Below, piece after piece: positions 35,175 to 40,428 of a stretch of 64,000 nucleotides of DNA. Below the pieces are notes generated by a model, which saw only the letters and a list, made by a program, of their open reading frames with translations, was not told where the DNA came from and ran no database searches. Source of the stretch: Candidatus Eisenbacteria bacterium (lineage in GTDB: Bacteria > Desulfobacterota > Binatia > DP-6); NCBI GenBank assembly GCA_035577985.1, contig DATJZY010000127.1, forward strand, positions 1-64,000, given 5' to 3'. Both the position numbers and the translations under genes were made by a program. The first letter of the stretch is position 1; every line of letters begins with the position of its first letter.

Positions 35175-36233
35175 TCAAATGATGTAGTCTTGGACGAACA
35201 CGCGCATCTGCCGCGGCGACACCTGGACGACGTCGCCCGGCACCAGCTTCAGCTCGGTGAACCGGTCCCAGGAGAGGTCCACGTTCAGCACGACGCCGAA
35301 CGTCTCCGAGTAGACGCGCACCTTCACCACCGGGCGGGCCGGGTTGATGTGCGTCACCTTGGCCTCGAGACTCGGGCGGCCGTTCTTCGTGCGCAGGATC
35401 TCGAGCTCGTGCGAGCGCACGAACGCCATGGCCTGACGTGACTCGGAGTCGGTGTACTCGGGGTACGCCACCTCGATGTTGCCGAGCGTCGCGCGGCCCG
35501 ACTGCACGCTGCCGTGGAAGACGTTCACGTTGCCGAGGAAGTCCATGACGAAGGGGTTCGCCGGATGCTCGAAGATCTCCGCCGGCGATCCGATCTGCTC
35601 GATCTTCCCGTGGTTCATGATGACGACCCGGTCGGACACCTCGAACGCCTCCTCCTGGTCGTGCGTGACGAACACGCTCGTCACGTGGATCTCGTCGTGC
35701 AGGCGGCGCAGCCACTGGCGCAGCTCCTGTCGCACCTTCGCGTCGAGCGCGCCGAAGGGCTCGTCGAGGAGCAGCACCTTCGGCTGCGCCGCGAGCGCCC
35801 GGGCGAGGGCGACGCGCTGGCGCTGGCCGCCGGAGAGCTGCGACGGCAGCGAGCGCTCGTAGCCGTCGAGCTGGACCAGGCGCAGCAGCTCGTGCACGCG
35901 GTCGCGGATCTCGGCCTTCGGCCGGTTGCGCACGCGCAGGCCGAACGCGACGTTGTCGAACACGGTCATGTGCCGGAAGAGCGCGTAGTGCTGGAAGACG
36001 AAGCCGACGTTGCGCTCGCGCACGGCGGCGTCGGTCACGTCCTCGTCGTGGTAGAAGACGGTGCCCGAGTCGGGCGCTTCGAGTCCCGAGATGATGCGCA
36101 GCAGCGTCGTCTTGCCCGACCCGGACGGACCGAGGAGCGCCAGCAGCTCGCCGGCGGGCACCTCCAGGGTCACGTCGTTCAGCGCGACGAACGTGCCGAA
36201 GCTCTTCGTGACGTTCTTGACCGTGATGCTCAT
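35175..36233 (-). CDS. cysA: Sulfate/thiosulfate ABC transporter ATPase CysA
   Basis: The 352-residue product has Walker [11 protein letters not shown]-loop [14 protein letters not shown], signature [15 protein letters not shown], Walker [12 protein letters not shown] and H-loop [11 protein letters not shown], then a TOBE-type C-terminal regulatory domain. It energises sulfate uptake through CysT and CysW. The ATG overlaps cysW by four bases. Confidence 0.96.
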
Positions 36234-37123
36234 GCCTCTCCTCCTAGAGTCAGCATTCGCTTGTTCTCTTCGAGCTCGCGGCGCGTCTTCCACTCGAGCG
36301 TCGTCTTCACGAGCAGCGTGACGAGCGCGAGCATGGCCAGCACCGACGCCACGGCGAAGGCGCCGGGCAGGTTGTATTCCTGGAACAGCTTCTCGACCCG
36401 CAGCGGCATGGTGTCGGTCTTGCCGGCGATGTGGCCGGAGACGACGTACACGGCGCCGAACTCGCCCATGGCGCGCGCATTGCAGAGGATCACGCCGTAG
36501 AGCAGGCCCCACTTGATGTTGGGGAGCGTGATCATGCGGAAGAGCTGCCAGCCGCGGGCGCCGAGGCTGACGGCGGCGATCTCCTCCTCGGCGCCGAGCG
36601 CCTCCATGAGCGGGATCAGCTCGCGGGCGACGACCGGGAACGTGACGAAGCACGTCGCCATCACGAGCCCCGGGAACGCGAAGACGATGTGGATGTCGTG
36701 CTCGCGGAGCCACGGTCCGAAGAAGCCCTGGAGCCCGAAGAGCAGCAGCAGGAAGAGACCGACCACGACCGGCGAGACGGTGAACGGCAGGTCGATGAGA
36801 GCGGTCAGGAACGCGCGCCCCGGAAACTTGAAGCGCGCGATCGCCCAGGCGGCGGCGATGCCGAAGACGAGGTTCAGAATGACCGCCGTCGGCGCCACCA
36901 TGAGCGTCAGCTTGATCGAGTGGAACGTGTCGGGGTCCTGGAAGAGGTTCTTCAGGTAGACGCGCGGTCCGGCTGCGAACGCCTCGACGAAGACGTTCAC
37001 GAGCGGGACGACGACCAGCAGCACCATGACGGTGACGGCCGTGAGCGTGAGCGTCCACTGCACCCAGCGCGGGTCCTCGTGGGCTCGCACGGGAACGGGG
37101 CGATGTCCTGCTGTCTCAGCCAT
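36230..37123 (-). CDS. cysW: Sulfate ABC transporter permease CysW
   Basis: The 297-residue inner-membrane protein has about six helices and the permease EAA loop ([20 protein letters not shown]), with [23 protein letters not shown]-type sequence following it, as in CysW. It pairs with CysT. It overlaps cysT by eight bases and cysA by four. Confidence 0.94.
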
Positions 37124-37940
37124 GCTGGCGCGCGCTCCAACGTTCGAGGAGGTTGATCGAGAACAGGGTCACGAAGGACATCGCGAGGAGCACGACCGCG
37201 ATCGCCGCCGCCTCGCCGTAGGCGAACTCTTCGAGGCGGGCGACCACCAGCACCGGCGCGATCTCGGTGCGGAAGGGCATGTTGCCGGAGATGAAGACGA
37301 CCGAGCCGTACTCCCCGAGCGAGCGCGCGAACGCGAGGGCGAAGCCCGTGATGAGCGCGGGCATGATCGAGGGCAGGGTCACCTTGAGCGCCGTCTGGAG
37401 CCGGCTCGCCCCGAGGCAGGCGGACGCTTCCTCGACGTCGCGATCGAGGCTCTCGAGGACGGGCTGCAGGGTCCGCACGACGAACGGAAAGCCGATGAAC
37501 ACGAGGACGATCACGATGCCGAGCCGCGAGTACGCGCCCTGGATGCCGAGCGGTACGAGAAAGCGCCCGTACCACCCGTCCTTCACGAGGAGGCTCGAGA
37601 AGACGAGCCCCGTGACGGCGGTCGGCAGCGCGAACGGGAAATCGACGAGCGAGTCGAACAGGCGCTTCAGTGGAAACTCGTAGCGGACCAGCACCCACGC
37701 GACGAGGCCGCCCAGGAGGAGGTTCACGACGGCGGACGCGAACGCCGTCCACATCGTGAGCCAGTACGCCGCGAGCGCCCGGTCCGAGAACGCGGCAGCC
37801 CAGAACTCGTCGAGCGAGAGGTGGGCGGCCTTCGCGAACCCGGCGGCCATCGGCACGGCCACCACCAGGCTCAGGTAGAGCATGGTGTAGCCGAGCGAGA
37901 GGCCGAACCCGGGCAGCACGCGGCGATTGACGTCGACCAT
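37116..37940 (-). CDS. cysT: Sulfate ABC transporter permease CysT (CysU)
   Basis: The 274-residue inner-membrane protein has six helices, FPFALPTAVTGLVFSSLLV and the EAA loop EEASACLGASRLQTALKVTL, followed by FARSLGEYGSVVFISGNMPF, which is typical of CysT. It starts 12 bases after sbp. Confidence 0.95.
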   Translation of the reverse strand: MVDVNRRVLPGFGLSLGYTMLYLSLVVAVPMAAGFAKAAHLSLDEFWAAAFSDRALAAYWLTMWTAFASAVVNLLLGGLVAWVLVRYEFPLKRLFDSLVDFPFALPTAVTGLVFSSLLVKDGWYGRFLVPLGIQGAYSRLGIVIVLVFIGFPFVVRTLQPVLESLDRDVEEASACLGASRLQTALKVTLPSIMPALITGFALAFARSLGEYGSVVFISGNMPFRTEIAPVLVVARLEEFAYGEAAAIAVVLLAMSFVTLFSINLLERWSARQHG

Positions 37941-38966: not shown

Positions 38967-38986
38967 CCCTGGACCGCGGTCCAGGG
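38967..38986. promoter_or_regulatory. 20-bp perfect palindrome just upstream of sbp
   Basis: The sequence consists of CCCTGGACCG and its exact reverse complement. In RNA it would form a strong hairpin ending 15 bases before the sbp start codon, so it could control translation or mRNA stability; as DNA it could be an operator. Confidence 0.6.
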
Positions 38987-39059: not shown

Positions 39060-39269
39060 CTAGGCCGCCAGAAGACCCGCCGGGGCGCCGGAGCCACGAC
39101 AAAGTCGGCTCCGTGCCGGCAGGACGATGCCGACGTCGGTTTCGGACGTGGCCGAGAGGGCACGGCTCGCGTCGCGCAGGGCGCGCGCGCTCGTGTTGCA
39201 CGAGCGCAGATGCCGGCGGAGGCGGAGCCAGCGGAGCTGCAGTTCGGTCTTGGGAGTCTGAGGCTTCAT
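39060..39269 (-). CDS. Possible small basic protein in the sulfate operon leader
   Basis: This 69-residue ORF has AAAGGA at good distance from its ATG. It is basic and Leu/Arg-rich at the start (MKPQTPKTELQLRWLRLRRH) with no recognised family. It lies between the attenuator terminator and sbp. It may be a small functional protein or simply part of a long leader; codon use is not distinctive enough to decide. Confidence 0.4.
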   Translation of the reverse strand: MKPQTPKTELQLRWLRLRRHLRSCNTSARALRDASRALSATSETDVGIVLPARSRLCRGSGAPAGLLAA

Positions 39270-39310
39270 CGAATCGTCCTTTCGTCGTCGTGTCGTTCGT
39301 TCGGTCGCGG

Positions 39311-39348
39311 AAACGAAAAGGCCCGGGGGGCATGAGCCTCCCGGGCCT
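39311..39348 (-). terminator. Rho-independent terminator in the leader of the sulfate operon (attenuator)
   Basis: On the minus strand AGGCCCGGGAGGC pairs with GCCCCCCGGGCCT across a short loop and is followed by TTTCGTTT. It lies 42 bases before the small ORF at 39269 and 360 bases before sbp. A 13-nt segment in the leader peptide ORF (39409-39421) is also fully complementary to the 3' arm, so alternative pairing is possible. This is the usual layout of an attenuator. Confidence 0.8.
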
Positions 39349-39371
39349 GGTTCACGACGTTGGAACGATGG

Positions 39372-39440
39372 TCAGGACGTTCGATCGAAGTGACCGCGCG
39401 CGCAGGAAGCCCCCCGGGCCTCGATACAACGACAACACAT
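39372..39440 (-). CDS. Cysteine-rich leader peptide of the sulfate uptake operon
   Basis: The 22-residue ORF begins MCCRCIEARGASC: cysteine codons at positions 2, 3, 5 and 13. It ends 24 bases before the terminator hairpin. Leader peptides rich in the end-product amino acid mediate ribosome-dependent attenuation, and cysteine-rich upstream ORFs ahead of sulfur genes are known in actinobacteria. Low Cys-tRNA should stall the ribosome at codons 2-5 and favour readthrough. Its own ribosome binding site is weak. Confidence 0.75.
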   Translation of the reverse strand: MCCRCIEARGASCARGHFDRTS

Positions 39441-39469
39441 CGCTGCGAGCGGTCTCGTCACTGTGGGTG

Positions 39470-39499
39470 ACAATGCCTTGGATGGACGTTCCGTGTCAA
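39470..39499 (-). promoter_or_regulatory. Candidate sigma-70 promoter for the leader and sulfate operon
   Basis: On the minus strand a perfect TTGACA (39494-39499) is followed, after 18 bases, by CATTGT (39470-39475), a weak -10. Transcription would start near 39463, about 23 bases before the leader peptide ATG. Confidence 0.5.
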
Positions 39500-39540
39500 G
39501 CGCGTGCGCGCGCTTTACAGCCTGGAGGTGCACCGCCAGC

Positions 39541-40428
39541 ATGACCCGCATGCCTTGGCTCATGCTGCTTGCGGTGTTGGCCGCGTGCGGAGGGAGCTCC
39601 GGCGGGCCAGGGGACACGGCGACACGGACGCGAACGCCGGGCATCCGCGTCACCATGGACGCGCTCCATCGGATGGGCGGCGTTCCTCCGGGCTGGAAGC
39701 TCACGCCGCCGGCGGGGGAGATCGCGGCGGGCCGCCAGGCCTTCGTCGACTTCGGTTGCCCGTCCTGCCACCGCGTCGAGGGCGAATCGTTCTCCAACAA
39801 GGCGACGGCCGAGCAGGTGGGCCCCGATCTGACCGGCATGGGCGCGCACCATCCGCCCGCCTACTTCGCCGAAGCGATTCTCTCCCCCGACGCCGTGCTG
39901 ATCGAAGGCCCCGGGTACATCGGACCGGACGGCCATTCCGTCATGCCCGACTATCCCGAGATGACGGTGCGCCAGCTCGGCGACATCGTCACGTACCTCT
40001 CTTCGCTCCGGACGGGCGGCGCGCATGCGGGGCACGTCATGGGCAATGCGCCCGTCGTCCCGGCCAACGTGTTCGCGCGCCCCCAAGCGCCGGAGCAGCC
40101 GGCGAAGGCGTTCTTCGTGCAATCGTACGCGGTGAAGCCCGGGCAGCTCGAGCCCTTCGAGCAGTGGATGAAGGAGAGCGGCGGACGGCGCTTCCTCGAG
40201 CAGGGCGTCATCAGCATCGACACCTACGTCGACTTCACGCGCGAGCAGAACCCCTACACGTCGATCTTCGGCTTCCGCGACCCCGCCGCGCTGCAAGCGT
40301 TCGTCGAGAATCCCACCGCGCAGGCCCTGGGTCTCGAGTTCGATGGCTTCATCGGCGAGCACACGCACACGCAGCAGATGTGGCCGCCGATCTATCGCGC
40401 GCCGAGCCTCTCGGCGGCTCCGCGTTGA
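39541..40428 (+). CDS. Lipoprotein: cytochrome c domain fused to an ABM-like domain
   Basis: The 295-residue product has a lipobox (LAVLAACGGSS), a single c-type haem motif CPSCH in GRQAFVDFGCPSCHRVEG with a possible distal Met in HSVMPDYPEM, and TVRQLGDIVTYLSSL as the terminal helix of the cytochrome. A second domain follows (FFVQSYAVKPGQLEPFEQWM through the conserved-looking FIGEHTHTQQMWPP), resembling the ABM/dimeric alpha-beta barrel superfamily. GGAGG precedes the ATG. The fusion suggests an envelope redox enzyme; the substrate is unknown. The FG-GAP lipoprotein gene follows 44 bases later. Confidence 0.78.
   Translation: MTRMPWLMLLAVLAACGGSSGGPGDTATRTRTPGIRVTMDALHRMGGVPPGWKLTPPAGEIAAGRQAFVDFGCPSCHRVEGESFSNKATAEQVGPDLTGMGAHHPPAYFAEAILSPDAVLIEGPGYIGPDGHSVMPDYPEMTVRQLGDIVTYLSSLRTGGAHAGHVMGNAPVVPANVFARPQAPEQPAKAFFVQSYAVKPGQLEPFEQWMKESGGRRFLEQGVISIDTYVDFTREQNPYTSIFGFRDPAALQAFVENPTAQALGLEFDGFIGEHTHTQQMWPPIYRAPSLSAAPR

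Follow-up and report, generated by a model that had tools for sequence, protein, structure and literature searches.

What decides when this genome transcribes its genes for sulfate uptake? The window, by which we mean the whole 64,000-nt stretch analyzed here, carries an sbp-cysT-cysW-cysA operon on its minus strand, preceded by a short open reading frame (ORF) with clustered cysteine codons and then by a hairpin, an arrangement that a preliminary description took for a cysteine attenuator. Our analysis favors the same reading, and we put at roughly 0.86 the probability that the leader is a cysteine-responsive, ribosome-mediated transcription attenuator of sbp-cysT-cysW-cysA. Such a leader would very probably let the cell switch its sulfur genes on only when cysteine is short, since relatives keep it before genes for sulfate import, cysteine making, and methionine making.

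The leader before sbp and its recurrence in relatives

The genes behind the predicted terminator are the following.

39060..39269, minus strand: second small ORF, 69 aa, with Shine-Dalgarno sequence AAAGGA, ending in SRLCRGSGAPAGLLAA
37953..38963, minus strand: sbp, sulfate-binding protein, the predicted regulated gene (NCBIfam NF008022, E 3.3e-118; TIGR00971, E 3.3e-114)
37116..37940, minus strand: cysT, sulfate permease (TIGR02139, E 6.2e-106)
36230..37123, minus strand: cysW, sulfate permease (TIGR02140, E 2.1e-108)
35175..36233, minus strand: cysA-like ABC ATPase (its translation contains Walker A and LSGGQ motifs; start placed by its ATGA overlap with cysW)

The preliminary description had the sulfate operon following the terminator, and this order stands, but the two are not directly adjacent: the T-run lies 350 nt from sbp, with the 69-codon ORF (39269-39060) in between. 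The neighbor on the other side, an ORF with a cytochrome c domain (39463-40428, plus strand), is divergent, and the terminator therefore cannot belong to an upstream operon.

Between terminator and sbp, a small Cys-containing ORF is found in eight of the 12 loci examined (the window, L002, L003, L004, L009, L012, L113, and L017; the L009 ORF and its start were read by eye). The Cys ends of these ORFs are SRLCRGSGAPAGLLAA in the window and SWLCRGSATLLAA, SRCCRLASCRRAA, PCCRLAA, FHTCLCRSAR, FHTCLCCPC, FHTCLCSAR, and SMGCLCCR elsewhere, and in the window and L002 the product is a conserved 69-aa protein with no Pfam match. This second ORF is a possible added translational stage; when the region from it to sbp was folded, structures differed between loci and no common hairpin sequestering the ribosome-binding site (RBS) was seen. 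The window also has a perfect 20-nt palindrome, CCCTGGACCGCGGTCCAGGG (38967-38986), just before sbp, a candidate protein site or hairpin that is absent before sbp in the other loci compared.

We scanned with a detector that requires three Cys within five codons of a short ORF, together with a strong hairpin and a T-run; its parameters were tuned after the site had been seen. On the two strands of the window it matched only the leader site itself, and 1.1 Mb of control DNA, likewise scanned on both strands, gave no match. The main evidence that the leader exceeds chance is its conservation across the class to which this genome belongs. Sbp relatives were collected across the class, from 58 genomes in one search and 148 in another. 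The preliminary description had proposed looking for the leader ahead of sbp in relatives, and a Cys-clustered leader ORF with a terminator of the same design is indeed conserved ahead of the sbp genes of 19 class members, the window's included, from seven families. Many other Sbp carriers of the class lack it (families f9, f2, and f5 and most of f4). Among class members without the leader, L018-L020, L021, and L022 have sbp close behind the end of another gene, whose product has an outer-membrane-barrel-like C-terminus, so the regulation of sbp must differ there. Nor was the leader found at 80 sbp loci of Pseudomonas, Acinetobacter, and others, where two weak detector matches far upstream were judged to be chance.

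The leader is also found away from sbp. R1, a covariance model whose training set was the 19 sbp leaders alone, matched within the class at a second cysTWA (L166), at DUF3034-metY-metX (L167), and at cysK-cysE in two genomes (L168, L169), as well as at genes for an alginate-export-type porin (L170) and a phosphopantetheine-binding acyl-carrier-like protein (L165). One of these sites, L165 (G000:C103:51542-51692), lies in the window's own genome, where it is the only other leader copy; its promoter is poor, and about 5 kb away the same contig carries a cysK-like gene. The cysK copies of this genome have no poly-Cys ORF within 500 nt. A second model built from all 25 leaders (R2) found no further strong Cys leader, and 297 genomes across the phylum gave no strong match outside the class. 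Sequence comparison supports the leader, the terminator, the competing pairing, and the association with sulfur genes.

Two other sets of candidates were set aside: a loose DNA pattern for the leader returned noise in 29 genomes, with real and reversed patterns equally common, and the weak model matches L171, L172, and L177-L179 are unlike Cys leaders. Other weak matches in the same class are leaders of a different kind. In L175, L196, and L197, the leader ORF encodes a run of aromatic residues (MNPKTSIFFWYFSLWRAPGPTPCA, MKPSAIFVVWSYFIPQEPGPTTCA, and MIASQTRSWFFGYFTWRRPGLREGLTSA) and a terminator follows, immediately upstream of a DAHP-synthase-like gene (assigned to Pfam DAHP_synth_1 at one of the three loci); these are probably aromatic amino acid attenuators. 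At L176 (G011:C23:13084-13223, minus strand), a leader reading VSFVRTERSCTRCLDDPSVRSRFV, with a promoter-like site 6 nt upstream, is followed by a terminator before a gene for an MgtC-family membrane protein.

Start codon, cysteine codons, and promoter of the leader

The promoter-proximal features of the window are listed here.

39494..39499, minus strand: predicted -35 element TTGACA, with a TTGAC-type hexamer at the matching place in most relatives
39470..39475, minus strand: predicted -10 element CATTGT, after an 18-nt spacer, ending 8 nt before the leader start codon
39372..39461, minus strand: leader ORF of 29 codons with a likely GTG start, VTRPLAAMCCRCIEARGASCARGHFDRTS then stop, from the sequence and its conservation upstream of sbp (19 genomes) and of other sulfur genes
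39426..39437, minus strand: putative sensor codons TGT TGT CGT TGT (Cys Cys Arg Cys), read directly from the sequence

The 22-codon cysteine ORF of the preliminary description, MCCRCIEARGASCARGHFDRTS followed by a stop (39440-39372, minus strand), is real, but its start and length need revision, for it makes up the last 22 codons of the 29-codon ORF. Its ATG is codon 8 of the leader (39440-39438) and is replaced by ACT, ACC, or ACG in L002, L003, L004, and L014, whereas relatives keep a GTG or ATG 15-24 nt upstream of that site. The ATG, which is not conserved in relatives, was thus ruled out as the start, and the leader likely begins at the in-frame GTG at 39461, 21 nt farther upstream.

Every one of the 19 sbp leaders, like the extra copies, has clustered Cys codons, two to five per leader and usually beginning at codon 7-10; VTMPRPAMCCCCTEARGTSPARGRAALVRRS, MNVRFATCCCCTKAWEVSRACSRPAFIVSH, and MLPGNFIHCCCCTQAREASRAPRRGDVSLRAS are examples of the peptides in relatives. 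Across the 19 leaders, which are related to each other and so do not give independent counts, these codons are 55 TGT to 26 TGC, against 14 to 145 in window genes (a reference of 34 genes chosen by GC3). The codon preferred in the leaders, TGT, is presumably the wobble-read one, and this preference could make the sensor more sensitive. In each of the 19 sbp leaders, no more than 54-69 nt separate the leader stop from the end of the T-run.

Across the 25 leaders, 6-13 nt (mode 8) lie between the end of the best promoter match and the start codon, and a Shine-Dalgarno match before the start occurs in 0 of 25. Given this spacing and the missing Shine-Dalgarno match, the leader mRNA is probably leaderless or nearly so, with a predicted transcription start next to the start codon. 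Sixteen of the 25 promoter scores stand above those of nearly all shuffles, and poor scores belong to L005, L009, L010, L113, L165, L167, and L170.

Competing pairings of leader and terminator

Four segments and a T-run, all on the minus strand, make up the proposed switch.

39410..39420, minus strand: segment 1, GGCCCGGGGGG, in the leader ORF, a near-copy of the terminator 5' arm that is complementary to segment 4 in most leaders
39399..39410, minus strand: segment 2, GCTTCCTGCGCG, in the leader ORF a little downstream of the Cys codons, predicted antiterminator 5' arm, pairing with segment 3 at 10/11 pairs in the window
39336..39347, minus strand: segment 3, GGCCCGGGAGGC, predicted terminator 5' arm and antiterminator partner of segment 2
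39320..39331, minus strand: segment 4, GCCCCCCGGGCC, predicted terminator 3' arm
39310..39319, minus strand: T-run TTTTCGTTTC of the predicted intrinsic terminator, from the sequence; nearly all aligned leaders have a T-rich stretch behind the stem

As the preliminary description had noted, a strong stem begins 24 nt after the leader stop and is followed by TTTTCGTTT: the hairpin, GGCCCGGGAGGC-TCAT-GCCCCCCGGGCC, occupies 39347-39320 on the minus strand and is GC-rich. The window stem has one A.C mismatch, at a place where many relatives have A-U, and this mismatch probably explains why a simple terminator scan did not find the window terminator. The window T-run is interrupted by CG. The 211-nt leader region folds with z = -4.0.

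Covariation was counted on a MAFFT alignment (A2) of 25 leaders. In the 3:4 terminator pairing, 92.3% of cells are paired and seven pairs are changed on both sides (0/500 shuffles). The 2:3 antiterminator pairing has 87.8% of cells paired, compared with 34-62% when it is slid by 1-3 columns, and 10 cells, in four pairs, are changed on both sides (1/500 shuffles). Position 69:160 alone is seen as C-G, U-G, U-A, and A-U; the pairing is well illustrated by L016/L114 (CCUCUCGGGCC or CCUCUCGGGCU with GGCCCGAGAGG), L167 (CCUCACG with CGUGAGG), and L168 (CUUCCCG with CGGGAAG). A terminator and a competing antiterminator conserved with compensatory changes, together with the recurrence of the element at other cysteine and sulfur genes, bear out the attenuator interpretation first given for this site.

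Segment 1, which is similar to segment 3, has the potential to pair with segment 2 or 4 in most leaders, but it is absent in families f6 and f7 and is therefore probably auxiliary. A protector hairpin between segments 1 and 2 was rejected, having no covariation support. With segment 1 lost in those families and the 1:2 pairing unsupported by covariation, the alignment points to a core of two competing hairpins, 2:3 and 3:4.

Folding of the partial RNA, before segment 4 is made, pairs segment 3 upstream with a probability of 0.61-1.00, above the dinucleotide-shuffle mean in 17 of 19 leaders; for this pairing L002 and L009 do not exceed their shuffles, and L006 barely does. For the complete RNA, equilibrium folding has the terminator prevailing in 18 of 19 leaders, a result that holds with the Cys region masked as by a stalled ribosome. 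Equilibrium folding thus fails as proof of switching, and the switch, if it works, must be kinetic. Within these folding models, this result is a real weakness of the computational case for the switch.

Could the hairpin matter less than the ORF? The poly-Cys ORF might act mainly by translational attenuation, a stalled ribosome exposing a downstream RBS while the hairpin serves as a stabilizer or weak terminator, which is how leaderless poly-Cys ORFs of mycobacteria have been described (PMC9031893, PMC13236596). The mismatched stem, the broken T-run, and the second Cys-containing ORF before sbp in eight loci would fit such an arrangement. Against it, the 3:4 hairpin shows strong covariation, a T-rich tract comes after it in nearly all aligned leaders, the hairpin is 350 nt away from sbp in the window, and the conserved partner of the leader is terminator segment 3 rather than a Shine-Dalgarno sequence. 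We consider this alternative to transcription attenuation unlikely.

The product of the leader also deserves attention, as its tail, A[RW][EG][AT]S.A.GR, is conserved too. Cys clusters may bind metal, and the ORF could encode a functional Cys-rich peptide for metal or redox binding, with the hairpin as an ordinary terminator or processing site. However, the codons of this tail coincide with segments 1 and 2, and its conservation is accounted for by RNA pairing; moreover, the peptide has no NCBIfam family match, and the linked genes are mostly cysteine and sulfur genes. A role for the peptide itself is thus quite improbable. We give still less weight to control by a DNA-binding regulator at the promoter or at the palindrome, with the leader as a constitutive partial terminator. 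A perfect palindrome just before sbp invites this idea, but it is not shared by the other sbp loci compared, and the idea leaves unexplained why the Cys codons are conserved and biased to TGT, why the antiterminator is conserved, and why the element recurs at other sulfur genes.

Proposed mechanism and comparison with known systems

For the attenuator that we favor, we infer the transcription start, translation, stalling, folding order, and cysteine response as follows. Transcription would start at or a few bases from the leader GTG, and a ribosome would load on the probably leaderless mRNA and soon meet the clustered Cys codons. With ample Cys-tRNA, it would proceed into the codons of segment 2, which then could not hold segment 3, so that the 3:4 terminator would form and transcription would end at the T-run, short of sbp-cysTWA. 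Under a shortage of Cys-tRNA, the ribosome would stall on the Cys codons, leaving segment 2 free to capture segment 3 as it emerges; segment 4 would then be without a partner, and RNA polymerase would read through into the sulfate-uptake genes. The model predicts that one shared signal, Cys-tRNA charging, serves sulfate import and the synthesis of cysteine and methionine without a dedicated protein regulator.

Taken together, the leader has the sequence-testable features of a ribosome-mediated transcription attenuator. The ORF is rich in codons of the regulated amino acid; a predicted intrinsic terminator, with a covarying hairpin and a T-rich tract, lies between it and the structural genes; the 2:3 pairing is an antiterminator that a ribosome could block and that excludes the terminator, though equilibrium energies favor the latter; and the downstream genes supply the amino acid, with the acyl-carrier-like gene at L165 and the porin at L170 as exceptions. 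A bolder proposal, which we hold only tentatively and think rather doubtful as a whole, is that one leaderless poly-Cys leader forms a shared regulon element (sulfate uptake, cysK-cysE, and metY-metX) in a diderm class outside the known cases, that termination replaces mycobacterial translational control, and that the second Cys ORF adds a translational stage in several species, so that one amino acid would gate sulfate uptake at two stages.

Attenuators of the trp/his type in proteobacteria have a leader ORF rich in codons of the end product and mutually exclusive antiterminator and terminator. The leader described here shares both features and differs in its probably leaderless start, a stop codon well past segment 2, and a dispensable segment 1. 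The whole window has no match to a T-box, an S-box, or another riboswitch in Rfam 15 at the gathering threshold.

In mycobacteria, leaderless polycysteine short ORFs attenuate cysteine loci, and the control is called translational in the accounts through which that work is cited here (Canestrari et al. 2020, doi 10.1111/mmi.14498; via PMC9031893, PMC9094748, PMC13236596); no conserved terminator was found upstream of mycobacterial cys operons (PMC1262725). As far as those accounts describe them, the mycobacterial ORFs have in common with our leader contiguous or clustered Cys codons, association with several cysteine loci, proposed sensing by ribosome speed, and probably a leaderless start. 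They differ in lineage and in acting by translational attenuation, whereas a conserved intrinsic terminator with a covarying antiterminator is present here, and a translational layer on top of termination is possible. Leaderless poly-Cys ORFs thus seem not to be confined to mycobacteria, and here they are coupled with a classical terminator. For Actinobacteria, Seliverstov et al. 2005 (PMC1262725) described candidate leader peptides upstream of cys operons, which likewise have a Cys run in a leader ORF, but the run is near the stop codon with no obvious terminator, whereas it is near the start and followed by a terminator in our leaders.

The preliminary description knew of no such leader before sbp-cysTWA in a diderm of this type, a remark on precedent that needs correcting, since a Cys-containing upstream ORF (uORF) with a terminator was already proposed before cysS in Rhodobacterales. 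This uORFC-8-2 motif (PMC8632094) has a tandem-Cys uORF and stems ending in a U-run, proposed to act by ribosome-mediated transcription attenuation, and it resembles our leader in its diderm host, Cys-uORF, and terminator. Compared by description, it controls cysteinyl-tRNA synthetase through two Cys codons, mainly UGC, near codons 14-15 (PMC8632094), whereas the leader here has two to five, mainly UGU, and stands before genes for sulfate uptake, cysK-cysE, and metY-metX; a position before cysS is not seen, and the Cys codons usually begin at codon 7-10, not at 14-15. By these comparisons, our leader falls outside the uORFC-8-2, actinobacterial, and mycobacterial sets and would work like them. 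These results extend the known range of cysteine-sensing leader peptides to a further class of diderm bacteria and illustrate that covariance models can find short regulatory ORFs in poorly studied lineages. What is new here is not the Cys-uORF with a terminator, as proposed for Rhodobacterales cysS, but a probably leaderless poly-Cys ORF joined to an intrinsic terminator.
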